From contig NC_133665.1 in NCBI RefSeq assembly GCF_037893015.1, positions 99,433,637 through 99,497,636 of the forward strand: a stretch of 64,000 nucleotides of DNA, in the 5' to 3' direction. The notes beneath the pieces are model-generated. The model saw only the letters and a list, made by a program, of their open reading frames with translations. It ran no database searches and was not told where the DNA came from. Every line of letters begins with the position of its first letter. Positions within the stretch are counted from its first letter, which is position 1. This document shows positions 23 through 62,704 of this stretch, one piece after another. The DNA is from Macrotis lagotis. Its lineage: Eukaryota; Chordata; Mammalia; Peramelemorphia; Peramelidae. The position numbers and the translations under genes were made by a program.

Positions 23-1261
23 GCTCTCCTTACTCTTAGGTAGAACAGAGGAATTCCTAGACTTAAGACACCAGGAAGGATTTCCCCTCAAATACTTGCC
101 CTTAAAATATTCCTCCTGATCTTTGGAGTCTTGGGGTCCTTACAGGGGGTACATTCTTCAGTCTCCAACAGGAGCTCAGGTTAGCAATGCCAATGACAGA
201 GAAAGGAAACCAAAAACCCAAATGAGAAGAAAGAGGACTGATAGCAGACTTTGCTAAGAGTGGTTTTTATATACTTGTTGAATAAGGGTTAGGGAAAGGA
301 GTGAAAATCTGGGGCTTAAAGTCAAGGGAGGGTATCCTAGGACATTCTGAAAATCACCTGAAAGAGTAGAAAGGGTTTGCTATCCAAGTCCTTTAAGGGA
401 AGCGTCAACATGGTGGCCTATAGCCAGGAAGGATCTTAGGGGAGCTCCTGAGGCAGAACAGTCAGCTCTAGAACAGTCAAGAAGAGAGGAGGAGAAAGGC
501 TCCAGTTGTCAGCAAGAAGCCTCTGGTCAGCCAAGGACAATTCGAAAACTTCATTACCTTTAGCTCAACGAGGAATTTCAGTACCTATTCTATATCAGGA
601 AGGAACTAGATGGCTTTCTTTACTCCTCCGATAGGAGGGATCTGATCACAGGACCCTAGATGGAAATTCCCAGAGGAACAGGAGGATGAGTTCAGAGTTG
701 CAGATTTTTGTGGACTTACTGCCTTTTTTGGTTTCACCTTACTTTGAGGGGGTGGCCTAGCCTTAAGCACGGGCAGAATAGACAAACACTTATGAGATGG
801 GGTTTCAACAGGTCCCACTACCTAAGAGATCTCTTCTCTTCTGTTCACCTTGCACCTCTTCTTTTTTCTTGTAGTGAAAATTCATTACACTGAATCTCAG
901 TGTTGGAAGGGGTCAGAGACATATTCTTCAGCAACAGGGATGGGGAACTCACTGCTTCCTGAAGCAAAAAATCTTCTGTCTTTTGGGGGGTTACTGTTCC
1001 TGGTGTCTAAAGCTGATTCTTAGAAACTTCACCTCATTACCTGGGACGAAGCAAAAGAAACTTAATCCCTTTTCTATGTGGTAGAACTTCAGGGAGTCAT
1101 AGGATGATATCCTAGGAATTTAGAGCTGCACATTCTTCCCAAGACTCCTTCCGGACCCTGTCAGGTAAAGAAGTTGTTTGGGATAAGAGGAAAGTGGAAA
1201 GATCAAGTTCAGGTCCATATTCATCCTTTATATCCAAAAGAACCTATTTTGAAAAACTCGC
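23..1261 (-). other. Intron 3 of cathelicidin pseudogene A (partial)
   Basis: There is no gene of its own here. The stretch aligns by eye with intron 3 of gene C at about 35910-37120, and with its tandem copy near 34300-35460. Shared landmarks include the runs around TTACAGGGGG and the GAATCTCAG block near 890. Open frames in it are chance. Confidence 0.7.
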
Positions 1262-1848
1262 CAGTAAAGCCTTAGAGTCACAAACTATTCCAATCACTAC
1301 ACTTCCATCATAAAGGGAATCGATCCCATGTGTTCTCTCACCTCCTACAAAGACAAAGAACAAAATAAGGTGATACTTGAGGCAATAGTGTCTTTGCCCC
1401 CTCAGGAGTCAGATGCTCCTGACTTTTCCCATCTGGTCTCTTGGTATATTTTCTTAGACTGAATAGCTATTTGGGTTATAGAATTTACTTGGATTGATGC
1501 CTGGGAAGACACATGAACTCATCTGAAGGAAAGTAAGCAGGAAAAAGGGAAAATAAACACCAGGACTACAACAATGGAAAGAAAATGCTGAGTAAATCCT
1601 AAGGATGAAACTTGCCCAAACACTATATGAACTTTCTTCCCTTCATTGAAGTAAAGAACAACTAAGAATGTACAATGAAGACTGCCTTGACTGGTGGAGT
1701 TGTTTAGTTTTGCTAAATTCTGAAAAACTACACTTTTCCCCCTTTCTCTTATAAAAGAGTTGTTCTCTAAGTGGAGGATTGGGAAGGGATATATTGAGAA
1801 ACAAAGGAGATATAAGAATAAAAGACATTTTTTCAAAGAAGAAGATAA

Positions 1849-2016
1849 GGGGGTGTCTAGGTGGTGCAGTGGATAGAGCACTGGCCCTGGAGTCAGGATT
1901 ACCTAAATTCAAATCCAGCCTCAGACACTTAATAATTGTCTAGCTCTGTGACCTCGGCAAATCACTTAACCCCATTGCCTTGCAACGCCCCCCCCCCCCC
2001 CCCCAAAAAGAAAAAG
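1849..2016 (+). mobile_element. WSINE1-like SINE with a C-run before its tail
   Basis: Full-length tRNA-derived SINE: GGCAGCTAGGTGG-type head, GTTCAAATCC-like B-box region, CACTTAATAATT middle, and a CCTTGCAA end followed by about 17 C and an A-rich tail. The C-run replaces the usual AAAACC. Confidence 0.85.
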
Positions 2017-2435
2017 ACAAGTAACAAGAAAGTTCCCTTTCACTCACCGAGGGACTCATGATTGTTGACTTTCAGGCCTGTTTCCCCCAGGTACAATAGG
2101 GAACTGAGCTACTTGGGAAGCAGAAAAAAAGGATTCTGAGCATAACCTCTTTCTGCTCACCAGGGTTGGGGCACCAGTAGTCCACCAATCATCACCCTGT
2201 TGTTCTCTTTCTTTACAAGTACAGATGTATAATAAGAATAAATATGATAAATGAGCAACTGATCAAAATGACCATCACCATCAAAACCTTTGCTGACATT
2301 ATTTAGAGCATCCCCAAATCCCTAGTGCATCTTTAAGCTTTAATAACTTGAATCTCTGAAAACCCTTAATCTTTAATCATTTGAAACAAAACTGAAGCTT
2401 TCAGTATTCTTTTCTAGTCTGTCATATCCAAAAGG

Positions 2436-2690
2436 TGGAGTTAGATGACACAGCAGCTACAGTGTTGGTCCTGAATTAAAAAGATCTGAATTCAAATCCA
2501 GCCTCAGACATGGGTAGAGTCATGTGATCCTGGACCAATCACTTAGCCATTTAGTCTCAGGTTTTCTAATGTGCAAAATAAGGATAATTAGAGAGTCTCT
2601 CTTCCAGGGTTGCTGAGAGGATAAAATGATGTAATATTTGCATAGCACTCTGTAAATCTTAAAGCATCACAACCCTGGGACATAGTTAAT
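2436..2690 (+). mobile_element. Old CORE-SINE (Mar/MIR type)
   Basis: Diverged tRNA-like head followed by a CORE-like part (CAGGTTTTCTAATGTGCAAAATAAGG, here in part) and GATAAAATGATGTAATA. The same insertion is present in gene C intron 2 near 38060-38500 and inverted in gene D intron 2 near 59870-60120, so it predates the gene duplications. Confidence 0.7.
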
Positions 2691-4277
2691 GCAAATATTA
2701 GTTTTTCATTTTACAGAGGAAGGACTAGGGTGATTTGTTTAAGGACCCTCAGTTGGGTCTTAAGAGATTAAGAGATGGAAATTACTTTAGAGATAAGTCA
2801 AGAGACTTCCTCTATCTGGGTCTTTATTTTCCCATCTCTACAATGGGACAGTTGGATTAGATTACCTCTAAGGTCCTCTCCATTGCTAGCCTTCTGTCAC
2901 TCTCTACTTCTTTTTTCATTTTATATGGATAGGGAAAGAGAAGAGACCAAAATGGTGAAGTGACTTAACTGAAGTCATACAAGTAGGAAGTGATAGAGGC
3001 AAAATTCAAATCTAGAACCTCAGACTCCCAATCCTGTTTTCTTTTTATTGTCTTGGGCTGCTTTCTCTAACACAAGAGTTCCAAAGACTCTTCAAAGGCA
3101 ATCTTAGTTAATGAGTAGATTGACTAGGTTCTGAGAACCTGTTTGGAAGTGGGAGAGTATCCTGGTCCAGGGAAATGTGCCCAGGAAATAACATTGAGGG
3201 TAGTGATAGTTTCCTCATTCCTTAATATTATCCTTATTATAAAATAAGGAGAGTTTTAAGTTCCTCTTATTCTTCACTTCCTGTCCTTTTCATGTTGTTG
3301 GTCTGGTGGATGTGGATTCAGAAAGCCTTATGTGCACCAGAGAGAACCACCTTGCAGTAGAAAATAGAAAGCTAGAAACAAAAATAAAATAAAAATTCTT
3401 ACTATAACTTTCAGGCTTCAATTGGCCTCCAATCCAGATATGAAGGGTTCAGCTTCCTTTAAATCCCAAAGTCTCATCTTCCCTAACTCCTATTAAATCC
3501 AGTATTTATATTCTGAGTTCTCATATTATTATTCTCATCCTCTTGACTAGATTTTAACTCTGACTATTTTTGTCCCTTACAATGAAATGAGCCAAACAAA
3601 CAAGTATCACATTAGCCCCTTTGCAGAGTACAACAATCCAGTGAATGGAATCTTGGATGTGGAGTCAGTAGATCCTGTAGGCTTCAGACCCTGACCAGAA
3701 TATTTATCAGTGATGAATAAGTTATTGAATAAGTTATTTCTCCTCTAGGACCCTTAATTTCCTCATCTACAAAATGGAAAGAATTTTTTAAGGAGAAAAT
3801 CCTGTTTGCATCATCTTCCTCATAGGTTTGTTGTGTAGAAATTGAAAAATTTCTAAATGATTGCAAATTTGGGCTACTATTGTCTTGGCCTGCTGTTTTT
3901 CTTGCCAAATAATGTACAAAAGCTAGGGTCTAAATCCTAGATTGTCCTCTGGCTCTGAGTTCTGGCATTCTCGTTGATCAGATTACATTTTAATAAGTTC
4001 TTTTTGAGACTCTAGGAGCTAGAAGCATTGCATGAAAGTCAAGGTTGACCTTTCCTTTGCTGTGTTCCCTTCAAAATCTATTCATTTTGGGAAAAGGAAT
4101 GTGAAGAGGTAGTGTGTATCAGATTCCATCCTTGGTCAGTACAAGTGGTACCAGTCTAACTTCCCTTCCCAAAGTAAAAAGATTAGTAAACTACCTTAAT
4201 ATTTGCTCAAGCCTATATGGATGTTTGGGCTTGAGGTTAGCAGTTTATATACAAGGCTGGGTTAAAACTTGTTTCTG

Positions 4278-4439
4278 GGGGTGGCTAGGTGGCACAGTGG
4301 ATAGAGCACGGGCCCTGAAGTCAGGAGTACCTGAGTTCAAATGAGGCTTCAGACACTTAATAATTACCTAGCTGTGTGGCCTTGGGCAAGCCACTTAACC
4401 CCATTTGCCTTGCAAAAACATAAAAAAAACCCAAAAAAT
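4278..4439 (+). mobile_element. WSINE1-like SINE with target-site duplication
   Basis: Complete young SINE flanked by the 14-base direct repeat AAAACTTGTTTCTG (4264-4277 and 4440-4453). It is also present in copy B at the matching position but absent from gene C, so it inserted after the C/A split and before the A/B duplication. Confidence 0.92.
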
Positions 4440-6255
4440 AAAACTTGTTTCTGAATACCTAGGGGTTGGCATATTTACTTGGAGTTGGAGGAAATATGGT
4501 TGGGTATCTCACAGGAAGGAGTACTCACCCCATATTCCTTGAATTCACATTGGTGAGGGTTCTGGTTCTCCATATTAAGACACTTAGTTTCTTGGATGGT
4601 GAAAATCAGAATGTGGTTCCCATCCTGGAAGGGAGAGAGCTGAAGGAAGCATAAAGGATAAGGGTGAGAGGAGTGAGGATGAGACCGTACAATGAAACAT
4701 AGACAAAGTCTGTCCTTGAAGACTCTCCTTGGATTCAAAACTTTGCCCTCTCCCAGCTTCTAGGATCCAGTATTCGAACAATATGCTTTAGAGTCAGAAG
4801 ACCTGGGTTTGAAGCCTAGCTTTTCTATTTAATTCTTTTGTGACCTTGCACCCACTGTTCAGGCTCCTCCCCTCCTCCATCAAAACTATCCATTGTCTAA
4901 CAGTCTCTTGCTAGAAAATATGAAAGTCCCTTAATTCTTCCTCTCCAATGGAGCAACAGGTACAATTGAGCTAATATGTGATCTTGGGGAGTTTTAGCAG
5001 GAGCTCTCTGAAGACTGTACCCCCACTAAGAAGAGTCATTCTAATAAACCATAGATAGCATAGGAAATGAGGGTGGAATATTTTGGCACCCTGGAACTTT
5101 TTTTTTAAATCACTTGTAGTCAGTCCATTTTCTCTGCCTAAGATCAGCCCCTGTGGGCAATGGTAGTCCAGGAGCACTCTCCCTTCTACAGCATTTATTA
5201 GACTCTATTGCTTTCCCAGGTTAGAATGAGCTCTTTGGGGCTCTGGGCACTCTATTCTGTCTTTCACAGTTATCCTTATTCTCGCTTTTGAACAGATCCT
5301 GCACCTTGTAACCCATCATTCCCTTTGAAAAATAGAATCCCACTTCATCCCTGAGTCCCTTCCCCTTATGTGAAGTCACATTCTTCTTAAAAATTTAACT
5401 CAAAGAAATTCAGAAAAGCAAAGATATGTTTGGTGAATAAAATGAACAGAACCAGAGAACAACAAATATGATTAAAATAATTTTAAATGGAAATTATCCC
5501 AAAATGAAGCATACTATTGTATGAAAATATTGAACAATCTTGGTTTTGGAGAAAGAAATGCATTTCTCTCCTTTACTGGAGAAGTAGAGGCACAGAATTT
5601 TGCAAACACTAGTAGATAGAACTGTCAGCAAGTGGTTTTGCTGAACTGCTTTTCTTTATCATAGGACAAAGGGTAGAGAAGGATGATAAGAATATATTTG
5701 GAAACTGCACTAATTTAAAAACAAAGATATAAAACAACAACAACAAAAACCTGTAGTTTAAGACTTGCCTCTCCCAGGGAGTTTTTCTAGGGGACTCTAG
5801 AGCCACCTTATTCTGCCCTAGATTCTGAGGCCTGCTCTTTCAATGACCAGAATTACTTCCAAATGAACCTCTTTGAAAGGCACTCAGAGGATGCTCCATC
5901 ATGGTTTAGGAATGACCTTAAAGATTAGAGATGGAGCATGGAAGTGTGCATGGAAGCATGCACCTTTAACTTAGAATATATCACCCCAAATTATGTGCTT
6001 GAGGAGATGGAGACAAGTGGGAAGGGGATTCATCCTGCCATCTTCAGCTCTGGCATCAACGAGCCTGTAGATGCCTTTTGTTCTAGTGATTCACTAATCT
6101 GGATATAGCTTTTTGTCACTCAATCTCTTCTTATGCTGAGCAGAAAGTGCTGTAATGGCCAAGGCCACATATAGCAGCAGAAGGCTTCTCCCCAGACTCG
6201 CCATCTTTTCTCAGCTAGTCTGGGGCTCCATGTCTTCCTTTCCTTCCAAGATGTT

Positions 6256-17041: not shown

Positions 17042-17046
<5 letters not shown>

Positions 17047-17670: not shown

Positions 17671-17701
<31 letters not shown>

Positions 17702-20713: not shown

Positions 20714-20875
20714 GGGGTGGCTAGGTGGCACAGTGGATAGAGCACGGGCCCTGAAGTCAGGAGTACCTGAGTTCAAATGAGGCTTCAGACACTTAATAAT
20801 TACCTAGCTGTGTGGCCTTGGGCAAGCCACTTAACCCCATTTGCCTTGCAAAAACATAAAAAAACCCCAAAAAAT
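20714..20875 (+). mobile_element. WSINE1-like SINE (copy of the 4278 insertion)
   Basis: Same insertion and same AAAACTTGTTTCTG flanks as in copy A. Confidence 0.9.
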
Positions 20876-20964
20876 AAAACTTGTTTCTGAATACCTAGGG
20901 GTTGGCATATTTACTTGGAGTTGGAGGAAATATGGTTGGGCATCTCACAGGAAGGAGTACTCAC

Positions 20965-22640
20965 CCCATATTCCTTGAATTCACATTGGTGAGGGTTCTG
21001 GTTCTCCATATTAAGACACTTAGTTTCTTGGATGGTGAAAATCAGAATGTGGTTCCCATCCTGGAAGGGAGAGAGTTGAAGGAAGCATAAAGGATAAGGG
21101 TGAGAGGAGTGAGGATGAGACCGTACAATGAAACATAGACAAAGTCTGTCCTTGAAGACTCTCCTTGGATTCAAAACTTTGCCCTCTCCCAGCTTCTAGG
21201 ATCCAGTATTCGAACAATATGCTTTAGAGTCAGAAGACCTGGGTTTGAAGCCTAGCTTTTCTATTTAATTCTTTTGTGACCTTGCACAAACTGTTCAGGC
21301 TCCTCCCCTCCTCCATCAAAACTATTCATTGTCTAACAGTCTCTTGCTAGAAAATATGAAAGTCCCTTAATTCTTCCTCTCCAATGGAGCAACAGGTACA
21401 ATTGAGCTAATATGTGATCTTGGGGAGTTTTAGCAGGAGCTCTCTGAAGACTGTACCTCCACTAATTAGAGTGATTCTAATAAACCATAGATAGCATAGG
21501 AAGTGAGGGTGGAATATTTTGGCACCCTGGAACTTTTTTTTTAAATCACTTGTAGGCAGTCCATTTTCTCTGCCTAAGATCAGCCCCTGTGGGCAATGGT
21601 AGTCCAGGAGCACTCTCCCTTCTACAGCATTTATTAGACTCTATTGCTTTCCCAGGCTAGAATGAGCTCTTTGGGGCTCTGGGCACTCTATTCTGTCTTT
21701 CACAGTAATCCTTATTCTCGCTTTTGAACAGATCCTGCACCTTGTAACCCATCATTCCCTTTGAAAAATAGAATCCCACTTCATCCCTGAGTCCCTTCCC
21801 CTTATGTGAAGTCACATTCTTCTTAAAAATTTAACTCAAAGAAATTCAGAAAAGCAAAGATATGTTTGGTGAATAAAATGAACAGAACCAGAGAACAACA
21901 AATATGATTAAAATAATTTTAAATGGAAATTATCCCAAAATGAAGCATACTATTGTATGAAAATATTGAACAATCTTGGTTTTGGAGAAAGAAATGCATT
22001 TCTCTCCTTTACTGGAGAAGTAGAGGCACAGAATTTTGCAAACACTAGTAGATAGAACTGTCAGCAAGTGGTTTTGCCGAACTGCTTTTCTTAATCATAG
22101 GACAAAGGGTAGAGAAGGATGATAAGAATATATTTGGAAACTGCACTAATTTAAAAACAAAGATATAAAACAACAACAACAAAAACCTGTAGTTTAAGAC
22201 TTGCCTCTCCCAGGGAGTTTTTCTAGGGGACTCTAGAGCCACCTTATTCTGCCCTAGATTCTGAGACCTGCTCTTTCAATGACCAGAATTACTTCCAAAT
22301 GAACCTCCTTGAAAGGCACTCAGAGGATGCTCCATCATGGTTTAGGAATGACCTTAAAGATTAGAGATGGAGCATGGAAGTGTGCATGGAAGCATGCACC
22401 TTTAACTTAGAATATATCACCCCAAATTATGCGCTTGAGGAGATGGAGACAAGTGGGAAGGGGATTCATCCTGCCATCTTCAGCTCTGGCATCAACGAGC
22501 CTGTAGATGCCTTTTGTTCTAGTGATTCACTAATCTGGATATAGCTTTTTGTCACTCAATCTCTTCTTATGCTGAGCAGAAAGTGCTGTAATGGCCAAGG
22601 CCACATATAGCAGCAGAAGGCTTCTCCCCAGACTCCCCAT
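20965..22640 (-). pseudogene. Cathelicidin pseudogene B (exons 2 and 1 only)
   Basis: Exon 1 is about 22470-22640 (starts MGSLGRSLLLLYVALAITAL) and exon 2 is 20965-21060 (32 open codons, DGNHILIFTIQETKCL start). It shares with copy A the missing base and stop in exon 1 and the lost donor, so the gene was already dead when the block was duplicated. Exons 3 and 4 are absent: 20350 and below is LINE sequence. The 87-codon frame at 20911-21174 is exon 2 with intron read-through. Confidence 0.88.
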
Positions 22641-22691
22641 CTTTTCTCATCTAGTCTGGGGCTCCATGTCTTCCTTTCCTTCCAAGATGTT

Positions 22692-22698
22692 CTTTATA
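22692..22698 (-). promoter_or_regulatory. TATA box of pseudogene B
   Basis: TATAAAG on the minus strand at the same distance from the start codon as in copy A. Confidence 0.55.
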
Positions 22699-23885
22699 GG
22701 GCCATGGAGGACAGAGGGGAAGGGCAGATCAGGTGTTTTAATCTGTGGCTTTCTTTATAATCCCTTGGCAAAGTAGAAGAAGATACCTTTTGCAAAAACC
22801 TGAGTTGCTCAAATCCTCTCACCTTGATGGAGTTACAGGGCCTGCTGAAAGATTGAAAAAGGGACAAACATTTTATCTATCTTTGGGGACTGAACAAAGA
22901 CTTGAAATTTATGGAGATAATCCTGTGCTTCTGCATCCCCTAACAAATTATTCTATCATAGTTTTAGGATTCACAAGCATCCTAGAACCAGGAGTACCAG
23001 CTGCCCTCTGGGGATCCAACATATAAATGTGAATGTAAGCTGGTGGAATGTCACCTCAGATCCATCTTGTGGGTCATTTTTAAGATCCTTGCTTCTCTTC
23101 TTCTCACAAAGATATTCAATGAACTGTTTTTTCTTTCTCCACATAATTGAAGGCAGGAACAGAGTTTGTAACATATAAGGGGAAAAGGCACTGAACTTGA
23201 GGTCAGGAAATCTACGTGGGGTCTGTTCTCAGTTCTGCCAATCTGTGTGACCATGGACATTCTCTTCCTTTTGATCTAATATCTTTTGTTCTTTGTACCT
23301 GTGTAAAAAGCAACAAAAAATGTATTGTGAATCCTCAGGGTCATTTAGCATACTTCTCATAATATTATTTTAGATTCATTAAGTACAATAATTGCAATGA
23401 TACCTTTTTCTCCTTAAAGATCCAAATTAAATTTATATTATACAATTATAATAAAATCTAAAATTTTTTTTCTCGTATTTATGAAAATTTTAAATATAAA
23501 GTAGTGAAACTAATGAAGAAAAATTATTATCTTATAGAAGACCTTCTACAAGATTTTTAAAAGAAGTATCCAAGATACAAGATTTCATATTACTTGCTCA
23601 CTATTATTTGTAAAATTTCATATTCAATTTTATCATTATATAAAATTTTTCATATATCAGTAGCAGTTTTAATGAAATAAATTACAACTTGAAATATATT
23701 TAATATAATATAGCAATGCCTCTAAACACAATTGATCTTTGATTTTTTTTTATTATTTAAACTAAGGCTTCCCACAGGACAAATATGGTTTTAAATGTTG
23801 CCAATAGATTTTATTTCTGAATTTTGATTGAGTAAAACAAAAATAAATTGAAAATGTTTTGCCATCTAAACTGTTTGTCTTTCAT

Positions 23886-24037
23886 TTTTTTTTAAGTTTT
23901 TGCAAGGCAGACGGGGTTAAATGGCTTGCCCAAGGCCACACAGCTAGGTAACTATTAAGTGTCTGAGACCTGATTTGAACCTGGGTACTCCTGACTCCAG
24001 GGCTGGTGCTTTATCCACTACGCCACCTAGCTGCCCC
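23886..24037 (-). mobile_element. WSINE1-like SINE
   Basis: Copy B partner of 7454-7610. Confidence 0.87.
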
Positions 24038-24057
24038 TTGTCCTTCATTCTTTTTAT

Positions 24058-24216
24058 TTTTTTTAGGTTTTTTAGGTTTTTGCAAGGCAGACAGGGTTAA
24101 GTGGCTTGCCCAAGGCCACACAGCTAGGTCATTATTAAGTGTCTGAGGTCGGATTTGAACCCAGGTACTCCTGACTCCAGGGCCAGTGTTCTATCCACTG
24201 CGCCACCTAGCTGTCC
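24058..24216 (-). mobile_element. WSINE1-like SINE
   Basis: Copy B partner of 7625-7788. Its 5' poly-T side differs slightly from copy A (GTTTTTGCAAGGCAGACAGG here), hinting at tail slippage or conversion with the neighbouring SINE. Confidence 0.87.
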
Positions 24217-24489
24217 CTTTTTAAAATTTTTTTATCTTTTTTTTAGATTGTCCTTCATTCTTAATGAGGACACGAAGAGAGTTATATTTTGCCTTGCACA
24301 TGAATCGCATTTAAGTGATGCAGAGCTGCCCAAAATCCTTAAACTGACCACTCTTCAACTTGAGTTGATTTAAGAATCTAATTCATTCTTAAGTCAGTTT
24401 ATCAAAATATGTAGGGCAAAATGGTAGAATTTTACGAACTTTCTTTATGGATATTTATTCTTTATTTTTAACTAAAAATATTTAAGACT

Positions 24490-24626
24490 GACTGTTTTTT
24501 GTTTTTGTGAGGCACTGGGATTGTGACTGACCAAGGTCACACAGCTAGTAAGCATCAAGTATGAGGTCACATTTGAATTCAGATTCTCCAAACTCATACT
24601 CTATCCACTGCCCCACCTAGCTGCCC
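24490..24626 (-). mobile_element. Old SINE fragment
   Basis: Copy B partner of 8061-8200. Confidence 0.72.
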
Positions 24627-25804
24627 TGTAAGGCAGAATCAATGTCCAGAATCAATGGATATGCTAATTTAGTTTTCTTTTATCATCCTTTGTCAATTCC
24701 TCAGTCAGAGATATAAAAGACATCAAATAGTTTACAAATCCAATCTAATTTACTGGAAACTTCAAGAAAATATAAATTAAAAAACAGTTCTAAAATTTTC
24801 AGATGATCATCTATGTCTTTCTTGACATACTGATCCAAAGATAGCTCATTTTCTAATAAGAAATTATCTAATGTCACCAAGAAATTGTGTAAGGCTACAG
24901 AACTCTTCTCAATTTTGTTATTTCAAATTTAGTTTCTTAATGATACTTTATAGTTTGTCTAGAACAGTCAATTTTTCTTTGTACCTGCATATGATGAGTT
25001 CGTTAATTTTTGAAAAGATGCTTGCTAAAGATATTAATCTTATTAGCCACATCACATCCTTTGTACATTCACTCAGGTGAAAACATTAGTGAAAAAGATA
25101 TTTCTCTTAATCAAATGGACTGCCAAAGAATAATCTTTCTACTTGAGATATAAGCAATCAAGAGTTAGTGGTCCTTGATTTTGAAAAAAATCAATTATTT
25201 TGACAGCACAGTATAATAGACTTTTATGTTGCTGAGGCATGTTCTTGATGCTAAATTTGTTTGTGTATGCTGCAGTCTGTCCATGCTGCAGACACATTCA
25301 TTTTTCTAATGGATGAAACAGGACCCCAATATTTCCCACTTATCCCTTTTGCTCCATCCATACAAATTCTACTATATGAGGATCAAATAATTTGTTTTCC
25401 TAAAAAGCATGAACTAATTAGATTAAATTAATTAGATTAAAATTAATTACATTAAATTAATTAGATTAAAAATGTCTTCCTATTGGTATTCACTGATGAC
25501 AAAATGGCTTAATCTCTTCCATGTAGATTTCCTAAAAATATAATAAAATAGCTAGGTTGTATATACATCATTATCTTATCAAATTGTAGAGCATAAATGT
25601 CACTTTTCAAAAATTGTTTCTACAGTCACTGATTCAACATCATTGGACATATCATTTATCTATTAAGACTTGATAGTGTTAGATCTGATGCTGTTAAATT
25701 TGGGTATTTTTTCTAGCTTCTTAATGGAATCATTACCAAACATACACTTGACCATTGATTTGGCACATGGAAAAATTCATTTTTTGTGCAATAATATCAG
25801 TTTA

Positions 25805-33928: not shown

Positions 33929-34153
33929 TCAGGGTAAATCAGGGTCAGGTTGGGGTCTGGGGAAATCGGGGCCAGGCTGAGGACTAGGGAAGGGTCCAGG
34001 CCCAGGCCGGAAGGGTCTTCCTCGTCTTCCCCCTCTGCCACGGCCACCACGCCCACGCCTACCACGGCCTCGGCCACCATGGCCATGGCCATTGCCACCA
34101 AAACCATGGACTGGGGATAGCTCAGCATCTGACACTTCCTGGGTTTCAGCATC
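33929..34153 (-). CDS. CATH: Gene C exon 4b: Gly/Arg-rich and Pro-rich peptide
   Basis: 74 codons and a stop after a clean TTTCTTTCTCCCACAG acceptor. The acidic linker DAETQEVSDAELSPV ends in a Val that suits elastase cleavage. The rest divides into a Gly/His part (HGFGGNGHGHGG), an RG/RGG part (RGRGRRGRGGRGRGGRRGR) and a Pro-rich part (PFRPGPGPFPSPQPG, later FPRPQP). That gives about 12 Arg against 3 acidic residues in a peptide of about 59. Pro/Arg-rich cathelicidins (Bac7, PR-39, prophenin) are known in artiodactyls; the RGG block followed by a Pro block is unlike those I can recall. The GC-rich base use differs sharply from the surrounding AT-rich DNA. Confidence 0.87.
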   Translation of the reverse strand, partial: DAETQEVSDAELSPVHGFGGNGHGHGGRGRGRRGRGGRGRGGRRGRPFRPGPGPFPSPQPGPDFPRPQPDPDLP

Positions 34154-37100
34154 CTGTGGGAGAAAGAAATATTCATATAGTAGTTAAGTCTTCATGAAGG
34201 TAGAAGGTCTCCCAGGTATGGACTAGGTCTTGGAGACCTTGTTGGAATTCTTGAGTAGTATCAGAGCATGATTGGGACCAGGCCTCATATACTGGATATC
34301 CAGGGCTCTCCTTACTCATACTCCTTAGGTAAGTTGCCTATCTTAAGAAGGTAAAATTTCAAGAAGTCTTACCCCTCAAAAACTTCCTTCCCTTAAAAAT
34401 TCCTCCTGATCTTAAAGTTCTTAGGGGGGCATATTCTTCACTCTCAGGTTAGCAGAATCTCAGGTTAGCAATGCCAATGAGAGGGAAAGGAAACCAAAAC
34501 CATAGTGAGCATATTGAAGGATGAGATCAGCTACTTTGATGAGAGCAGAGTTTTATAAGCTTGTAGAATGAATGAGAGGGTTAGAGGAAGGAGTGAGAAT
34601 CTGGGTCTTGGACTCAAGGGAAGGATCCTAGAAAGAAGTGAAAATGTTAAAGTTTCAAGGGAAGTTTCAACATGGCAGTCCATAGCCAGGAAGGACCCAA
34701 AGAGAGCACCTGAGGTAGAGCAATCAGTCTTAGGATAGTCAAGAGGAGAGGAGGAGAAAGGGTCCAACCATCAGGAAGAAATACTCTGGTCAGCCAAGAA
34801 TGAGTGGAAGCCTTCACTATCTTCAACTAAACAAGGAATTTCAACACCTATTCTATACAAGAAGGTCCTAGATGACTTTCTTTTTTTTTTAAGGCAATGG
34901 GGTTAAGTGACCAAGGTCACACAGCTAGGTGATTAAGTGTCTGAGGCTGGATTTGAACTCAGGTACTCCTGTCCCCAGGGCAGGTATCAGCTGTCCCTAG
35001 ATGGCTTTCTTTACTCCCCAGATAGAGACCTAATCAGAGGACTCTGGATGGAAATTCCCAGAGGAATAGGAGAATGAGTTCAGGATTGGGGCTTTTTGTG
35101 GACTTATCTGTCTTTTTTTTGGTCTCACCTTCCCTTGAAAGGGTAGGCCTGGCCTCAACTGAGCAAAGACAGAACAGGGAAACACTTATGAGATGGGATT
35201 TCAAAAGGTGTCATCTTCTAAGGAAATTCTTTTCCTTCTGCTCACCAGATTATTCTCTTTTCCAACCCTAAATTTTTTTGTTGTAGTGAAAATCTATTAT
35301 ATAGTATTTTAGTGTTGGAAGGGACCAAAGAAATGACTGACAGCACCAGGAATGGGGAGTTCATTGCTTCTTGAAGTGATCTCTTGATACCTTTTTGAGC
35401 TACTGTTCCTGACTTTTTTCTCTTTTCCTGATGCGTAAAGCTGCTTTTGGGATCTTCAACCCATTGGTCAGAATGGGGTCCAGGGAAATTGGGGTCAGGT
35501 CAAGGGCTGAGACATTGAGACCAGGCAGAGAGTCAGGGAAGAAGAATTCAGGCCCTGGCTAAGGCCAAGAAAAGATCAAAGCAGAGATCAAGGCCTTGGG
35601 CTCATGTATAGGATTGAATGGAAAGATATCTCAGAGTTCTCTCTCTACCTCATGTCGTCTTTGCCTTCTTCCTCCTCTGTTGTTGCCACGGCCACTGCTC
35701 TCACTGCCTTGGCCTGGTGATATCTCAGCATTTGACACTTCTTCATTGAACTGTAGGAGAAAGAAGTGCACAAACAGTGGTTAAGTCTTCTTGAAGTCAG
35801 AGGGCCATCCAGGTTTGCAAGTATGTAGGGCTAATGGGATGTTTTAGAGACCTTATTGGAATTCCTAAGCATTATCAGCATATAACTGGGCTCAGGTCTA
35901 GTATCCTAAATATCCAGGGCTCTCTTTCCTCATAAGCAGAACAGGGAAGTTGCCTGGACCTAGGAGGTATAATTTCAGGAAGGTTTCCTCCCAAAATATG
36001 CCCCCTTAGAAATATTTCTCCTGATCTTAGAGGTATTGGGGTCCTTTCAGGGGGCACATTCCTGACACTCCAACAGGAACTCAGCTTGGCAATACCAATG
36101 ACAGGAAGAGGAAACAAAAATCACTATGAGCAGATTGAAGACTGAAAGCAGACTCTTTGCTGAGAGTAGAATTTTTATGTGCTTCTTGAATGACTGCGAG
36201 AGTTAGGGGAAGGTATCAGCATTTGGGGTGTGATGCCAAAGGAGTAGATTGAGTTTCTAATCCAAGTTCTTCAAGGGAAGCACAGCATGGAAACCCATAG
36301 CCAGGAGGGACCTTAGGAAATCATTTGAGACAGAACAACCAACCTTAGGATAGAGAAAAGAAGAAAGGTTGTAGTAATCAGGAAGAAGTCTCTGGTGAGC
36401 TTAGGACAAGTAGAAGTCTTCAGCACCTATTCTTTACCAGCTAGGTCCTTGATGACTTCCTTTTTTCCCCAGAAAGGAATTCTCAGAGGAATAAGCAGAT
36501 GAGTTTGGGGGTGGGACTTTTTGTGAACTTACCTGTTTTGGTTTTTTTTTTTTTGTTCTCACCTTCCCTTGAGGGAGAAGACTTGGCCTTAAGTAAAGGT
36601 GGGACTGACAGAACAGGCAAATATTTATGAGATAGGATTTCAAAAGATCCTCCACCTAACAGATTTCTTCCCTTCTGTTCAAAAAGGCCAGATTATTCCC
36701 CCTCCCCCTCTGTTTTTTTTTCCTGTAGTGAAAATTCATTCCACAGAATCTCAGGGTTGGAAGGGACCAGAGAAGTATCCTACAGCTCCAGGGGTGGGGA
36801 TCTCACTACTTCCTGAAGTCTCCCTCTCTGCTTTTTGAGACCACTGTTTCTGGTGTCTAAAGCTGGTTCTTGGAATCTTTAACTTTATAGTTTCTATTTC
36901 TGACTTCTAGTATGAAGCAAAAGAAACTTAATCTTTTTTTCCTATGTGGTAGAATTTCAGGGAGTCATGGGAACATAGCCTAGGAACTTAAAACTGCACA
37001 CTCTTCCCTAAGACTCCTTCCTGACCTCATGGGAAAGGGAGTTCCTTGGGAAAAAGGCTAAGGTCAAGTTCAGAACCACACTCCTCCTTCATATCTAAAA

Positions 37101-38253
37101 GCATCTGGTTTAAAAAACTCACCAATAAACCCTCTAAGTCACAAAGGGGTCCAAACACCACGCTACCATTGTAGAAGGGAATTTTTCCTCTGCAGAATTT
37201 CCCCCTCTATAAGGACAAAGAAAAAAAAAAGGTGTTACTTGAGGCAATAGGGTCTCTGCTCCCTCAGGAGCCAGATGCCCCTGAGTTTTTCCATCTGGTC
37301 TGCTGGGGCATTTCCTTAGGCTGAACAGCTGTTTGGGTTATAGAATTTATTTGGATCAACACCTTGGAAGACTTATATGAATTGATCTGAAGGAAGATAA
37401 GCAGAAAAAAAGGGAAAAATATATACCAGGACCTCAATATTGGAAAATAAAAGCTAAGTAATTCTAATGACCAAACTTGGTCAGACACAAGACTCCACTA
37501 CAAGTGGAGAATAAAGAATGTGGAGTGAGGCTCAGACTGCCATACTTAAATGAATTGCTTAATTTTGCTAACTGTGAAAAACCTCCCTTTTTTCTTTCTC
37601 TCTTTTAAAGGATTGAGCTCTAGGTAGAGGATTGGGATGAAAAATATTGGGAAACAAAGGGATGTAAAAACAAAAGAGATCAATTACAATTTTTAAAAGA
37701 AAAATAACAAATGATAACAAAATTTCCTCTGATTCACCAAGGGTGACATGAAGCCATCTTGAGGGACTCTTGACTTTCAGGTATAGCTATGTTTCCCAAG
37801 CTATGCTAGGGAGCTGGGCTGGTGGGTGGAAATAGGATGCTAAGAATGACCTTTTTTTGTTCACCAGGATTGAGCACTGATACCTCACCAATTATCAACC
37901 TGATCTTCCCTTGGCTTGCAACTAAACTGAGGCTTTTGATTTCCCTTTATTAGTCCTTCATATATAAAGGTAGGTAGGTGGAGCTAGGATACACAGCTAG
38001 GTGACAAACAATCCTTTATAAGAGAGAAGGAAAAAGGGGAAGTTTTCAGAATTAGCAAAACTAACAGCAGATAAAGTGTTAGACCTGGGTCAAGATCTGA
38101 ATTTGGGGTAGTTAGGTGGTGCAATGGATAGAGAACTGGCCCTGGAGTCAGGAGGACCTGAGTTCAAATCAGACCTCAGACACTATTTACTTAGTTGTGT
38201 GCATCCTTGGACAAGTCACATAACCCCATTGTCTTGCCAAAACAAACCTCTCT

Positions 38254-38303
<50 letters not shown>

Positions 38304-41300
38304 TGGGGGGGAAGATCTGAATTCAATTCCAGTCCCATTCTCTAATGAGCTATATGATCCTGGACCATTCACTAGCCATTTAACCTCCAATTTTCTCAAA
38401 ATGAGAATAAAAAGACCACCTTCCTCCCAGGGTTGTTGTGAAGATAAAATGATGTAATATTTGAATAGTAGTGTGTAAATCTTAAAGTATCACAACTTTG
38501 GGACATAGTACAAATATTAGTTCCTCATTTTACAGGTGAAGAACAAGAGTGATTTGTTCAAGGTCCTCAGCTGGGACATTAAGGGACTCAGAGTTGGAAA
38601 GACCTTAGAGATCCTGCCCTTACCCACTTCTGTAATCTTGGCCAAGTGACTTCTATCTAGGTTTTCAATTTCCCATCTCTACATTGGGACATTGGGATTA
38701 GATTACCTCTAGGGTCCTTTCCATTGCTAGGCTTCTATCATTCCTTTCCTTTCTCCTCATTTTTTATAGATAGTGAAACAGAAGAGACTAAAAAGTTGGA
38801 AGTGACAGAGGCAAGATTCAAATTTCCAACCTCAGACTTCCAGCCCTGTGTTCTTCTTTCCATTGCCTTTTAGGCTGGTTTCTCTATTACAAGAGTCCCA
38901 AAAGTTTCTCAAAGGGAATCTGAGTTAACAAGTAGACTGATTAGCTTCTAAGAACCTGCTTGGAAGTGGGAGAGTTTTCCAGGGTCCAGGGAAATCCCCA
39001 GGGAATAATATTGGCAATCCCAGGAGTCTCTTCATTCCATAGTATTTTCGTTACTATAAATAAGGAGAATTTTAAGTTCCCCTTATTCATTCTGTTTCAC
39101 TCCCCATATTCTCCATATGTCATCTGGTGGATGTGAATTCAGAAAGTGGGATCATGTACAAGGAGAGCTGCCTCTCAGTAGAAAAATGAAAAATGAAAAA
39201 CAAAACGAAATAAAACCTTCTTACTATAACTTTCTGGTTCTGATTGGCCTCCCATCCAGACAAGAAAGGCTCAGCTTCCTTTATGTCTTCATTAAAATCT
39301 CACCTTCTATAGGAAGCCTTCCCTAACTCCTTTTAAATCCTGGACTTTGCTTCTTTGTGTATATTTGCTGGCACATAGTTTCCTCTATCAATTATAAGCA
39401 GGACAGGTACTGGTTAGCTGGTTTTTGGTTTTTTGTTCTTTCACCTCTAAACATCAAATACCTGACCCTTAGTAAGAACTTAACAAATGTTGATTGAATG
39501 ATTGAAGCTGAATACTTCCTGGTAATTAATTTACTCATTATAATCTGACTTCTTGTAGTTCTTATATTTATGTTCTGAATTATTATATTTAGTTGTTATA
39601 TTCTGAGTTATTCTCATATTCTTAATTAGATTTTTAACTCTTGTGACTGCTCTCTCTTTGTACAATGGACCAAACCAACCAAACAAATAACACGTTAGTC
39701 CATTGCAGAGTCCAGTGAAGAGTCTTTGATGTGGAGACAGAAGACCCTGTGGAATTCAACCCCTACTTGTGATATTTATCAGCTTTGAGTCAGTTAATTC
39801 TCCTCTGGGACCCTCAGTTTACTCAACTTTACAATGCAAAGAATTTTTTTTAATAGAATTCTATTCTCATCACTCTCCTCATAGGTTTCTTGTGAACAAC
39901 TGATAAATGATTGCAAATTATGGATATTATTGTTATGGCCTGCTGGGCTTCTCACCATAAAATGGATAATAAACAGAATCTAGATACAAGATTGCCCCCT
40001 GGCTCTGGGGCCTGGCATTCTCATTTTCAAACTATATTTTAATGAGTTCTTTTCAAGCTTCTATGAGCTAGAAATCTGACGTGGAAGGCAAGGTTGACCT
40101 TTCTTTTCCTCTGTACCCTTCAAAATCTACTCATTTTGGAAAATGGGACATGAAAAGGCAGGATCAGATCCTATCATTAATCAGCACAATTGGTACTAAC
40201 CTGACTGCCCGAAATTATTCCTTTCCCTTCCTTTCCCAAAGTAGAAGGATTAGCAGACTACCTTGATCTCTGCATAAGCCTACATGGATGATCAGGCTTG
40301 ACTTTAGCAGCCTCTTTGCAAGGCTGGGTTAAAACTTGCTCCTGAATCATTTTTACTTGGAGTTGGGGTATCCCAGACACAATAAGGAGTACTTACTGGA
40401 GGTACTTTGACTTCACACTGGTTAGGGTTCTGGTTTGATGATTTAAGGCACTTGGTTTCCTGAATGATTAATCTTAGGATCCGACTGTCATCCTGGAAGG
40501 GAGAGAGTTGAAGGAAGGATCAAGAGTAGGGCTGAAAGGAGTGAGGATGATTCTGTACATTGGAGCATAGGCAGTCTATTTAGGATGCAGATCTAAATAC
40601 TCCTTTTTTGCTCTTTCCCAGTTTCCAAGATCCAGTATTTGTATTATAGATTTTAAAGTAAAGAAGACCTGGATTTGAAACCCAGCTTTTCCACATGATT
40701 CTTTTGTGACCTTGTACCCACTGTTTAGGCTTCTTCCCTCTTCCATCAAAACCATTCACTCTAACAGTCCCCTTTTAGAATTTAAGAAAATCCCTCAATT
40801 CCTCCTCTCCAATGGGACAACAGGTACAACTGAGTCAATATGTGACCTAGATTTGTTTTAGCAGGAGCTCTCTGGAGACCCTACCTCTACCAAGAAGGGT
40901 GATTCTAATGGAACAGGGAACTTTTTTTTTTTTACATGACTTGTAGGCAGCCATTTACTCTGCTAATGGACAGGACCTGCCCCTGTGGGCAGTGGATAGT
41001 TCAGGAATATTCTACCTTTACCCAGCATTTATTAAACTCTTTTGTTTTCTGAAGCTAGAATGAGCTCTTTGGGGCTCTGGGCACTCTATCTTACCTTGCA
41101 CAGTGATCCCCATTCTCTTTTTTTGGACAGATCCTGTACCTTGTCACCCACCATTACCTCTGAAAAATAGATTCCCTGCCTCATTCCCCAGTCCAGCCCC
41201 TTTTGTGAACTCATGTTTCCCCTCTCCTTCAAAACACAAAGAAATTCAGGAAAACATAAAGGGTTTTTTTTTGCTGAAAAAAATGAGAAAACCAGGAGAA

Positions 41301-57368: not shown

Positions 57369-57542
57369 ATGGGGAGAAGCCTTCTGCTACTATGTGTGGC
57401 CTTGACTGTTACAACACTTTCTTCTCAATATAGAAATAGACTGAGCGACCAAGAAGCTATATCCAAATTACTGGATCGCTACAACAAAAGGCACAATAAA
57501 TTCATCTTCAGGGCTGCTCGAGTGACACCTGGATATGACAAG
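57369..57542 (+). CDS. CATH: Gene D exon 1
   Basis: 58 codons, signal peptide plus cathelin N-terminus ending TPGYDK before GTGAGT. The extra codons of the longer frame past 57543 are intron. Confidence 0.88.
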
Positions 57543-60500
57543 GTGAGTTCCCTCCCCACTTGTCTCCCTCTCCCCAAGTACAGAATCTTGAGTGATAGAC
57601 CCTGTCAAAGTGTGTGTGGGGTGTGTGTGTGGAGATTTAAGCTCTATCTCAAGGTTTTAAGGTCATTCCTAAGCCTGACAAAATATCCTATGGGTAACTA
57701 TGAGGGAGGTTCAATTGGGAATAGTTCTGGTCACTGGAAGAACTGCAGATTTCCCTCCAGCCCCAGAACAATGGACAGAATAAAGTGGTTCTGGACTCCC
57801 CTAGAAAAGCCTCTTGGGAGAAGCAAGTCTTAAGCTTTGGGGTTTTTTTTTTGTTTATTTGTTTTATATATCTTTATTTTTTATTAGAGCAATTTCCAGA
57901 AAATTTCTCCTCATCTCTCTCCACCCTCTGCCTTGTGGAAAAAGAGAGCCACAAATTAAAACAGCTGACTTGCCCTTTCCCTCTATCCTCCATGACCCTT
58001 AAAAGAACATCTTGGAAAGATGTCTTGTGGTAGAGAAAAAGTTAAGTTAAACCAATTTCTGGCACTCCTTTCTGAGAGTGTATGCAAAGTTCTGTGCCTC
58101 TACCTCTCAAGTGAAAGGAGAGAAATGCATTTCCTCTTCCCTTCTCCAAGGCCAAGATTGATCATTACTGTTATATAATATTATGCTTCATTTTGAGGTT
58201 ATTTTCATTTTAAATTATTTTCATTTTATTTATTGTTTTCTTGGTTCAACTCATTTATTCATTTTATTCATCAAATATCCTTATGTTTCTCTGAATTTCA
58301 TTGAGTTATTTTTTGAAGAAGAGGAGAAACATGATTTCACATAAAGGGAATAGACTATGGGAAGATGTGGGGAACCTATTTTTCAAAGGAATTGGTGGGG
58401 TGATAAGGTGCAGGCAATAGACCAGATCTGTCCAAAAGAGAGAACAGGGATTATTGTGCAAGGTAAGAGAGAGTGCCCAGAGCTCCAAAGAGCTCATTCT
58501 AGCCTGGGAAAAATAATAAAATTTAATAAATGCTGGATGGGGGAGAGTGTTCCTGAAATACCATTGCCCACAAGATTTTTTTTTAAAAATCCTCTTTGCA
58601 TTCTAAATATTCCCCTGTGATTTCATGTATCTGTGGTTTCCATTAGAACACTTTTCTAAGTGAGGTAGGGTCTCCAGAATTCTTGCTAAACACACCTAGG
58701 TCACATATTCCCTCAATAGTACCTGTTGTCCCATTGGAGATGAGGAATTGAGGGATTTTCATATTTTCAAGCAGGGGGTTATTAAACAATGAATGGCTTT
58801 GATGGAGGAGGGGAGAAGCCTGAACAAATGGTGAAGGTCACACAAGAATTAAATAGAAAAACTTTTTTTCCAGCCTAGGTCTTCTCACCCTAAAACATAC
58901 TATATGAATCATGGGTCCTGGAAACCGGAAGGAGGCAAAGGTAGGAGGGGAAAGATTTGCATCCTAGGAAAGTCTTCAAAGACAGACTTTGTCTGTCTTC
59001 CAATGTGTAGGATCATCTTCACTCCTCTCATCCCTGTCTTTGATGCTTCCTTCAACTCTCTCTCTCTCCCAGGATGGGAACCGGATCCTCCGATTCATCC
59101 TCCAGGAAACCAAATGCCTTAAGTCAGAGAATCAGAATCCCGATCAATGTGAAGTCAAAGAAGAAGGGGTAAGAACTCCTTATTATGTCTGGGATAACCC
59201 CACCATAATACTCCAACCCACAATCAAATGTGATAGTAGCATCAAAGGATTAAAGAGTTTTACACCAGTCATATAGGCTGCTAACCTCAAGTCTGATCAT
59301 CCATATAGGTTTGAGTAGACATCAAGGCAGTTTACTAGTCCTTCTGCTTTGGGAAGAGAAAAGAAGTGTTTCAGGCAGTCAGGTTAATACCAATTGTGTT
59401 GACTAATGGTGGGATCTGATATTGCCTTTTCACATCCCATTTTCCAAAATGAATAGATTTTGAAGGGAAAAGAGCAAAGGATTGGGAGGCTGAGGTTTTA
59501 GATTCAATTTTGCCTCTATCATTTCTTACTTATATGACTGTGGCAAAGTCACTTCACCTTTTGGCCTTTTCTCTTTTTCCTATTTATATATAATGAGGAG
59601 AGGGGAGGAGAGTGATAGAATGTTGACACTAGGGAGGATCTTAGAGGTAATCTAATCTAACTGTCCTATTGTCAAGATGGGAAAACAAAGACCCAGATAG
59701 AGGAAATCACTTGAACAAGATTATAGAAGGAGGTAGAAGTATGATCTCTAAGGTTTTTCCATCTCTTATGACCCTTATGACTCTCTACATTTCCCTTATG
59801 ATCCAGTCAAGAGTCCTTGAACAAGTCACTCTTGGTATTTATGAGATACTAATATTTATAGTGTGTCCCAACATTGTGATGCTTTAAGGTTTACACAGTG
59901 CTATACAAATATTACATCATTTTATCCTTACAACAACTCCATAAAGTAGGTGCTCTTATTTTCCTTAATATGAGGCTACCCAAGGCTAAATGGCTAAGTG
60001 GCTGGTCCAGGATCACATAACTCTAAATTAGAGTCTGAGTCTGGATTTAAATTCAGTTCTTTCTGACAGGTTGGATGCTCTATCTGTTTTGCCCTCTAAC
60101 TGCACCTAGTTACCTTTTGGTTATGAAGGACTAGAAAAGGAAAATAAAAACCTCAGTCTAGTTCCAAACTAATACAGATTAAGAGTTTTCAGGGAATCAA
60201 GTTAATAAAGCTTAAAGTTGCACTAAGAATTTTTGGGATGCTCTAAATAATGTCAGCAAAGGTTTTGATGGTGATAGTCACTATGTTTAGTTGGCCATTT
60301 ACTATATTTATTATTATTATTATTATTATTATAATACATCTATACTACAAAATATAGGGAACAGCAGGGTGATCATTGGTGAGCTGTGCCCTAACCCTAG
60401 TAACCAGAAAGAGGTCACACTCAGCATTCTGTTTCCACCTATCAAGTAGCCCAACTCCCTGGCATGACTTGGGATACATACCTAGGTCTAAAGTCAAGAA

Positions 60501-61142
60501 TCTCTCAGGATGAACTCATGACACCCTGGGGAATTTTGTTGTTGTTCTTTTTTTAAATGTATTGACCTCTTTTGTTCTTACATTTCCATTGCTTCCCAAT
60601 ATATTCCTTCCCAATCCTCTACCAAGAGAACAACCCTTTATAAGAAAATTTAAAAAAGTGAATTTTTTCAGAATTAGCAAAACTAAGCAGCTCAACTAAA
60701 AAAAAGCAGTCTATGCCTTTTTCTGCATCCTTAGTCCTTCACTGCTGCAGAGAAGGGAAGGAAGTTCATTCTTGTAGTATCTGACTAAGTTTGGTCATAA
60801 GAATTACTCAGCCTTTGCTTTCCATTGAGGTAGTCAATCTGTATATTCCCTCTCCCTTTTTTTTGCTTACTTCCCTTTGGATCAGTTCATATAGGTCTTC
60901 CTAGGTTTCAATCCTGATAAATTCTATCACTCAAGCAGTCATTCATCCTAAAGAAATAGCCCAGGAGACAAGAGGGGAGAAAAGTCAGGAGCATCTGATT
61001 CCTGAGAGAGCAGAATTACTTAATGGCTCAAATTATTACCTTTTTTTCTTTGTCCTCATAGCTGGTGGAATTCTGTGAAGGAAAGATTCCCTTTGCCAAT
61101 GGTGGAGTGGTGTTTGGACCCTTTTGTGATTATGATGTTTAA
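57369..61142 (+). CDS. CATH: Cathelicidin gene D, cathelin-only product
   Basis: Exons 57369-57542, 59073-59168 and 61062-61145, all phase 0 with GT-AG sites. The 116-residue product has a signal peptide (MGRSLLLLCVALTVTTLSSQ), the LLDRYNKRHNKFIF motif, and all four cathelin cysteines (KCLKSENQNPDQC; FCEGK; PFCDY). It ends at a TAA (61140-61142) two codons before the exon 3 donor, so no antimicrobial tail is made. The stop is within a few bases of the last exon junction, so nonsense-mediated decay is not expected. The start chosen is the ATG at 57369 that aligns with the other copies; the longer frame from 57324 has no ATG. It may be a secreted cathelin domain or a gene in early decay. Confidence 0.8.
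57936..58022 (+). repeat. Copy of the proximal promoter inside gene D intron 1
   Basis: About 85 bases repeat the block at 57247-57330, including ATTAAAACAGCT and CCCTTAAAAGAACATCTTGG. It is bracketed by CTTGTGG at both ends (about 57932 and 58024). Details such as CTCCATG resemble copy A more than the adjacent D promoter. Intron 1 of A and of C lacks it. Confidence 0.75.
59073..59168 (+). CDS. CATH: Gene D exon 2
   Basis: 32 codons, DGNRILRFILQETKCLKSEN onward to KEEG before GTAAGA. Confidence 0.9.
59870..60120 (-). mobile_element. Old CORE-SINE in intron 2 of gene D
   Basis: Inverted partner of 2436-2690 and of the split copy at 38060-38500. Confidence 0.68.
60307..60332. repeat. (TTA)n microsatellite
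   Basis: Eight or so TTA units in intron 2 of gene D. Confidence 0.92.
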
Positions 61143-61145
61143 GTG
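61062..61145 (+). CDS. CATH: Gene D exon 3 with in-frame stop
   Basis: 28 codons long like exon 3 of C, reading LVEFCEGKIPFANGG, then VVFGPFCDYDV and TAA in codon 27. The donor GTGAGT is intact. Confidence 0.85.
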
Positions 61146-62051
61146 GTGAGTTTTACAACCAGAAGATTTTGGATATGAAGGAAGAGTGTGACCCTGAACT
61201 TGACCTTTCTATCTTCCCCTTTTCCCAAAGAATTCCCTTCTCTAGACTTCAGGAAGGAGTCTTGGGGAAGAGTGTGTAACTTTAAGCTACTTTATGTTCC
61301 CATTAACTTGAATTCTTCCATGTAAAAAAAAGGATTAAGTTTCTTTTACTTCATCCCAGAGGTCAGAAATAGAAGCTACAGGTTGAAGATTCCAAGAATC
61401 AGCTTTAGGCATCAGGAACAATAACCCCCCAAAAGAAGACGGCTTTGCTTCAGGAAGCAGTGAGTTCCCCATCCCTGGAACTTTAGGGTACTTCTCTGGT
61501 CCCTTCCAGTGCTGAGATTCTGTGGGATGAATTTTCACTACAAGTGAAAAAAAAGGTGGGCAAGGGAGAATAATCTGGTCTTGGCAGGAAGAAAAGAAGT
61601 TCTGTTAGTTGGTAGGATCTTTTGTAATCCCATGGCATATGCATTTGTTTGTTTTGCCTGTTCTGCCTGTGTTTGAGGACAGGACTTCTTCAAGGGAAAG
61701 TGAAACCAAAAAAGGCAGGTTAGTCTACAAAAAGCCTCCACCTGAACTCATCCTCTTATTCCTCTGGGAATTACCATCTGGTGTCCTATGATCAGACCCC
61801 TTTCTGGGGAGGAAAGAAAGCCATCCAGGACCTCCTGGCATAGAATAGGTGCTGAAATTCCTTATTCAAGTGAAGATACTGAAGACTTCTACTTAGCCTT
61901 AGCTGACCAGAGACTCCTTCCTGACAGCTGGAGTCTTTTCCCTCTCCTCTTCTTGACAGTCCTTGGACTGGCTGTTCTGCCTCAGGTGCTCTTTTTGGGG
62001 CCTTCCTGACTATGAGCTGCCATGGTGATGCTTCCTTTGAAGGTCTTGAAT

Positions 62052-62057
62052 AATAAA
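62052..62057 (+). terminator. AATAAA in intron 3 of gene D
   Basis: A canonical poly(A) hexamer in the last intron, in GAATAATAAACC. Use of it would end the transcript after exon 3 without changing the protein, since the stop lies in exon 3. No similar signal was seen in gene C intron 3. Confidence 0.3.
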
Positions 62058-62551
62058 CCAAATCTCTTTCTGGATCATTTTCACTTCTTCCCAGGACTCT
62101 TCTCTTGACACCAGGCTCCAGGTTCTCATTCCTTTCCTTAACTCTCATTTAACAAGCATTTAAAAACATTTCTAAACCCTGCTCTCAGCCAAGAGCCTAC
62201 TTTTAGTGTTCAATCTGCTCACTGTGTTTTTGACTTCCTCTCCCTGTCATTGGTATTGTTAATTTGAACTCCTGCTGGTGAATGAAGAATATGCCCCTGA
62301 AAGATCCCAAGACCTCTAAGATCAGGAGAAATATTTCTAAGGGGGAGGAGTAGTTTGAGGGGAAGTCTTCCTGAAATTATATCTCCTAAGTGTAGGCAAT
62401 TTCTCTGTTCCATGAGTAAGGAGAGCCCTGTACACTGGGGATACTAGGTGTGAAGGGCTCTAAGACATCCTAATAGTCTTACTGAATTACTGGGCAGCCT
62501 TCTGCCTTCATGAAGACTTAGTCACTGTTTGTGTACTTCTTTTTTCCACAG

Positions 62552-62704
62552 TAGGAAGCTCAGGAAGCATCAGATGGCAAGATATCACCAATCCATGCCT
62601 GGGGAAGCAGTGGCTGTGGTTCCAGTGACTGTGGATTGTGTTTGCTCAAAGGGCAGGCACTGTTAGCCTTTTATTGCAGCATCCCAATTGGTCAGGACTT
62701 GTGA
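62552..62704 (+). pseudogene. Decayed exon 4 of gene D
   Basis: Follows a good CTTTTTTCCACAG acceptor and aligns with exons 4a and 4b (AQEASDGKISP with QEVSNAEISP). The first codon is TAG unless the next AG at 62554 is used. Beyond it, 49 codons stay open but the Arg/Gly codons have turned into Cys and others (GSSGCGSSDCG against ESSGRGNNRGG), mostly CGT to TGT changes at CpG. Because exon 3 already stops, this exon would be 3' UTR. Confidence 0.7.

Follow-up and report, generated by a model that had tools for sequence, protein, structure and literature searches.

A cathelicidin gene with two last exons lies on the minus strand of the stretch analysed here (the window, 64,000 bases, C8:99433637-99497636). 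With moderate confidence, we regard the second of these, exon 4b, as a true terminal exon that tandem duplication of exon 4 created in a marsupial cathelicidin gene of cluster B, with a cationic host-defence peptide as its predicted product. The gene, referred to as gene c, follows the four-exon plan of cathelicidins, in which exon 4 encodes the mature peptide, yet two exons 4 are found here, 4a and 4b (Table 1), in agreement with an earlier note on this DNA that had already read the locus as a cathelicidin gene with a second exon 4. Exon 4b occupies exactly the interval which that note had assigned to it.

Gene c and its genomic setting

Exons 1-3 of gene c and exon 4b fuse in phase with AG/GT borders. 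Exon 2 comprises 96 bases and exon 3 84 bases; for bat cathelicidins, the text of PMC12483743 gives 108 and 72 bases, respectively. The joined precursor in its 4b form matched the Pfam cathelicidin profile PF00666 with 36.1 bits (8.6e-9, cut-off 21), and the 4a form reached 36.7 bits. The Cystatin profile PF00031 was also above its cut-off of 22.2 bits, with 24.2 bits for the 4b form and 24.7 bits for the 4a form, and PF00666 leads this rival model by only about 12 bits; cathelin domains resemble cystatins. In addition, three cathelin chains in the PDB matched the joined precursor (1.4e-4 to 0.0068), and a search of NCBIfam, a prokaryote library, gave no match for the precursor. The four cysteines of the joined protein, counted by eye, are spaced by 10, 10 and 16 residues, which is the cathelicidin spacing given in the text of PMC12483743; in the text of PMC12006171 it is printed as X10, X5, X16. 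The N-terminus of the precursor is hydrophobic, as judged by eye.

The Pfam cathelicidin profile was searched against the whole genome (3,655,600,598 bases in 607 contigs) and yielded at least 12 matches, all above the cut-off, at least five of them at C8:97.99-98.05 Mb and at least five at C8:99.44-99.58 Mb. These counts are lower bounds, exon 2 of gene c and of paralogue e being missing from the list. As is characteristic of cluster B, there are two groups on one chromosome, both within 1.2-1.6 Mb. Marsupial cathelicidins form clusters A and B according to the text of PMC12006171, and the separation of the two C8 groups by about 1.4 Mb matches these clusters. The cathelicidin match at window +93.5 kb could not be assigned an exon 4. 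Lone cathelicidin-domain matches outside both clusters occurred on C6 (28.3 bits) and C5 (24.6 bits). A GC-rich open frame about 77.0 kb left of the window resembles the first exon of PTPN23; as the 29 residues of this candidate exon had no Pfam match, PTPN23 was dropped as a flanking gene. Frames at window -38.6 to -38.9 kb and at 82.4-82.6 kb, seen in weak tblastn alignments, resemble fragments of LINE-1 ORF1.

Table 1. Features of gene c and of the cathelicidin paralogues within the window (positions are those of the window).
Feature	Position	Strand	Remarks
Exon 1, coding part, 62 codons	41862..42047	-	signal-like N-terminus, start of cathelin domain; donor GTGAGT
Exon 2, 32 codons, phase 0	40397..40492	-	QETKC...NQC
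Exon 3, 28 codons, phase 0	37123..37206	-	last two cathelin cysteines, spaced by 16 residues
Tandem duplication unit 1	35466..36819	-	end of intron 3, exon 4a, 34-base piece past its stop
Exon 4a, alternative last exon	35631..35750	-	39 codons and stop
Tandem duplication unit 2	33943..35377	-	part of the intron, exon 4b
Exon 4b	33929..34153	-	acceptor ...TTTCTCCCACAG, then 222 coding bases and TGA (read 34153-33929); linker, predicted 59-residue peptide after SPV, stop
15-bp repeat array	34037..34091	-	most of the Gly/Arg block; Tandem Repeats Finder, 3.7 copies, 75% matches
AATAAA	33448..33453	-	sole one on the gene's strand in 1.4 kb past 4b
Paralogue a	1224..6211	-	exons 1 and 3 interrupted by in-frame stops
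Paralogue b	20944..22647	-	exons 1-2 nearly identical to those of a
Paralogue d	57369..62619	+	in-frame stop in exon 3, another in phase at the start of exon 4

Tandem copies of exon 4 and the paralogues

Exons 4a and 4b each possess an AG acceptor with a pyrimidine tract, are in phase and have their own stop. The two units in which they lie align as four pieces of 771, 345, 43 and 34 bases with identities of 67.7, 71.3, 86.0 and 82.4%, respectively, which indicates that 4a and 4b are tandem copies; judged by this alignment, the duplicated segment that includes 4b is old and measures about 1.4 kb. In exon 4a the Gly/Arg part is short and the Pro tail is missing before the stop; the 34-base piece downstream of that stop resembles the Pro tail of 4b. 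The position of the Val of SPV in 4b is taken by Gly in 4a, which has no SP(V/A) site. Exon-4 homologues occupy the corresponding position in paralogues e, a and d, and the 21 pairwise identities among the seven exon-4 units all fall between 71.4 and 77.9%, so that we claim for the duplication just that it is old. Dating by a tree of these units was rejected: on about 745 bases only e1 and e2 grouped with support (100/99), and on about 1110 bases 4b grouped with e3 (72/93, marked as weak by the tool) and the grouping of e1 and e2 was no longer drawn.

Paralogue e, at window -24.7 to -33.7 kb and about 59 kb left of gene c, carries three exon-4 copies that run for 66 (e1), 54 (e2) and 77 (e3) codons to the stop. 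Among matches outside exon 4b itself, copy e3, near window -33.3 to -33.7 kb (C8:99.400 Mb), is the closest to it (tblastn 1.85e-20). Its 15-bp Gly/Arg repeat is far longer than that of 4b, and an in-frame stop lies ahead of a still recognisable Pro tail. The exon-4 relic of paralogue a, just left of the window, has a Pro-rich tail and almost no Gly/Arg block. The comparison of e3 and paralogue a thus indicates that the Pro tail is common to the copies and that the length of the Gly/Arg block varies. Residues after which elastase may cleave are V, A and I, and one of them precedes His in five of the seven exon-4 copies (4b, e1, e2, e3 and d); of the other two, copy a is without a clear equivalent.

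Three of the five genes of the group (a, b and d) look degraded, and paralogue d is probably dead. For paralogue b, no exon 3 or 4 was matched within 15000-22800. Through a recent duplication in this region (3843-8365 and 20279-24794, 16.4 kb apart, with blocks of 97-99% identity), a segment of a degraded cathelicidin gene is present twice, and the exon-2 translations of the two copies are identical despite the in-frame stops in exon 1 of copy a.

Evidence on the use of exon 4b

The open frame of 4b is of little help in deciding whether the exon is used. When composition-matched sequences were resampled with a first-order Markov model, 1497 of 20000 stayed open across all 74 codons, and the length of the frame was therefore rejected as evidence for 4b. 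This result fits the most serious alternative, which we think possible rather than probable, namely that the duplication left 4b behind as an unused relic in a gene that uses 4a or is decaying, and that its frame is open since GC-rich sequence yields few stops. What nevertheless sets 4b above chance is that it connects in phase to exons 1-3, whose cathelicidin domain exceeds the Pfam cut-off, and that homologous exon-4 copies lie at the corresponding position in paralogues. In contrast to what would be expected of a relic, the acceptor, the phase, the SPV site and the stop of 4b are all intact, and it is 4a rather than 4b that has lost its Pro tail along with the cleavable residue. The acceptors scored 8.0 for 4b and 7.0 for 4a with an approximate matrix, and in the span from 4a to 1.4 kb past 4b the sole AATAAA found lies downstream of 4b; this placement and the V, A or I ahead of His in most exon-4 copies also speak for use of 4b.

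The tests for selection speak on both sides. Exons 1-3 of gene c are open and, compared with paralogue d, carry amino-acid changes at a lower per-site frequency than silent ones (p 0.0011), which also argues against a decaying gene; compared with paralogue e, the constraint is not clear (p 0.0879). In the parts of 4b outside the repeat, purifying selection was not detected, as the relic explanation would predict: Fisher tests gave p 1.0 for the linker and p 0.064 for the tail against e3, and p 0.79 with dN above dS for the tail against copy a. The control for these codon tests, the two other frames of one stretch, gave p 0.3 and 0.088. For the whole exon against e3, dN was 0.286 and dS 0.846 (p 0.0003), a value that depends on an untrustworthy alignment of the repeat. 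The degradation of paralogues a, b and d and the stop in e3 are likewise consistent with an unused 4b.

Alternatively, 4a and 4b might serve as alternative last exons whose choice depends on tissue or state, with a single promoter for two different C-terminal peptides. The intact acceptors and phase of both exons and the three open exon-4 copies of paralogue e would be in line with such an arrangement. However, 4a has neither an AATAAA or ATTAAA of its own nor a cleavage site of the type found in 4b: between 4a and 4b, no AATAAA or ATTAAA occurs, and the variant signals AGTAAA and TATAAA are present at 35015 and 34557, respectively. Furthermore, 4a showed no constraint against e2 (dN 0.343, dS 0.320, p 1.0), and in the text of PMC12483743 a bat cathelicidin gene for which two exons 4 are proposed counts as non-functional, exon 2 being missing. 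We therefore regard two products from gene c as unlikely. A similarly low probability is given to a broader reading, in which cluster-B cathelicidin genes of this marsupial would employ their tandemly duplicated last exons (two in gene c, three in paralogue e) as a cassette and one promoter and cathelin domain would lead to several unlike peptides, including a Gly/Arg-plus-Pro hybrid tuned by the length of the minisatellite.

The predicted peptide and its relation to known cathelicidins

The translation of exon 4b comprises an acidic linker and a Gly/His stretch, both as described before, followed by a 21-residue Gly/Arg block and a Pro-rich tail. The RG/RGG block of the earlier note is thus present, although it consists mostly of RG with few RGG (7 RG, 2 RGG in the exon). 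An elastase-type residue, the Val that had been pointed out ahead of the basic block, precedes the predicted cationic peptide (SPV-H), as is typical of cathelicidins, and the count of 59 residues after SPV proved exact; were cleavage to fall at the exon's first Val instead, the peptide would have 67 residues. The 59 residues include 19 Gly, 13 Pro and 12 Arg, and a charge of +9.0 at pH 7 was computed for the SPV-H peptide. This charge is unevenly distributed: with His excluded, the first 31 residues carry +10 and the last 28, whose Pro-rich tail holds three Asp, carry -1. A PDB search returned no match for the 59-residue peptide. The Gly/Arg block of 4b is largely a 15-bp coding minisatellite, the length of which is unequal between copies.

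Starting from the preferred explanation, splicing of exon 3 to 4b would produce a 196-residue precursor consisting of a signal-like start, the cathelin domain, the acidic linker and the peptide. An elastase-type cut after SPV would then free the 59-residue peptide, which is expected to be disordered. Its Gly/Arg block would attach to polyanions of the bacterial surface such as LPS and teichoic acid, with looser binding to nucleic acid, and the Pro tail, uncharged to acidic, may act as a spacer that keeps the peptide extended and soluble. Binding to surface polyanions is favoured by the split of the charge, the absence of both the ribosome-binding consensus and FPPP, and the parallels to the Gly-rich cathelicidins of cod, and we infer that a disordered cationic peptide binding to bacterial surface polyanions is the most likely form of action.

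The 4b peptide shares with the Pro-rich cathelicidins Bac7, PR-39, VicBac and prophenin that part of it is high in Pro. Prophenin consists of cationic repeats with FPPP, a motif absent from the 59 residues; the earlier description of the tail as prophenin-like is overstated, given this absence and the net charge of this part. Bac7- and oncocin-type peptides bind the ribosome by an N-terminal part with the consensus (R/K)XX(R/Y)LPRPR (text of PMC9146984). In contrast to Bac7-like peptides, this consensus has no match within the 59 residues of the 4b peptide, and the Pro part is C-terminal and without net positive charge. With RGG-box proteins, the peptide has in common a low-complexity stretch rich in RG. 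These proteins are mostly intracellular, whereas the 4b precursor has a signal-like hydrophobic start and only 2 RGG. The two-part intracellular action that had been proposed earlier, in which the Pro part would enter bacteria and hit ribosomes while the RGG part binds nucleic acid, draws on composition only, in that RNA binding by RG repeats is known from other proteins (text of PMC12502372) and a block of protein synthesis in bacteria is described for some Pro-rich cathelicidins (text of PMC9146984), and is very improbable in our judgement, since the missing ribosome consensus and the position and charge of the Pro part do not support it and the unstable length of a block that is largely minisatellite makes a designed nucleic-acid-binding box less likely.

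Among marsupial cluster-B cathelicidins (for example the non-classical AnstCath2, MyfaCath3 and SmcrCath12), the text of PMC12006171 provides a close setting: a second group on the same chromosome, four exons and a variable cationic exon 4. Cluster-B peptides described there include Pro/Arg-rich or Arg-rich ones active on E. coli. That survey lists nine bilby cathelicidins, three of them partial, and across its species 83 predicted mature peptides of 10-50 residues, 81 of which have helical parts. With 59 residues rich in Gly and Pro, the 4b peptide falls outside this description, a distinction drawn from the main text of the survey; the string 'splic' does not occur in that main text. The literature search for 'GRGRGG' together with 'cathelicidin' gave 0 papers, and no paper among the matches listed dealt, in title or start of the abstract, with duplication of exon 4 in cathelicidin genes of marsupials. 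In the parts of the literature covered, the combination of Gly/Arg and Pro was not found described, in line with the earlier note.

Atlantic cod cathelicidins resemble the 4b peptide in their Gly/Arg-rich exon-4 part; to our knowledge they have no Pro-rich tail, and, the lineage being distant, the likeness may be convergent. Their exon-4 part is rich in Gly, Ser and Arg and mostly predicted to form linear Gly-rich rods (text of PMC4451034), and codCath is active on Gram-negatives and Candida with little activity on Gram-positives (text of PMC3978493).

If 4b is unused, it would be an ordinary remnant of a fast-turning gene cluster. If it is used, mammalian cathelicidins would gain peptide diversity by the choice of exons besides gene copies, and gene surveys ending at the first exon 4 would overlook peptides. 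The copies also provide a natural series in which the Gly/Arg block next to a common Pro tail is short, medium or long, and which is suited to testing how such blocks act on bacteria.
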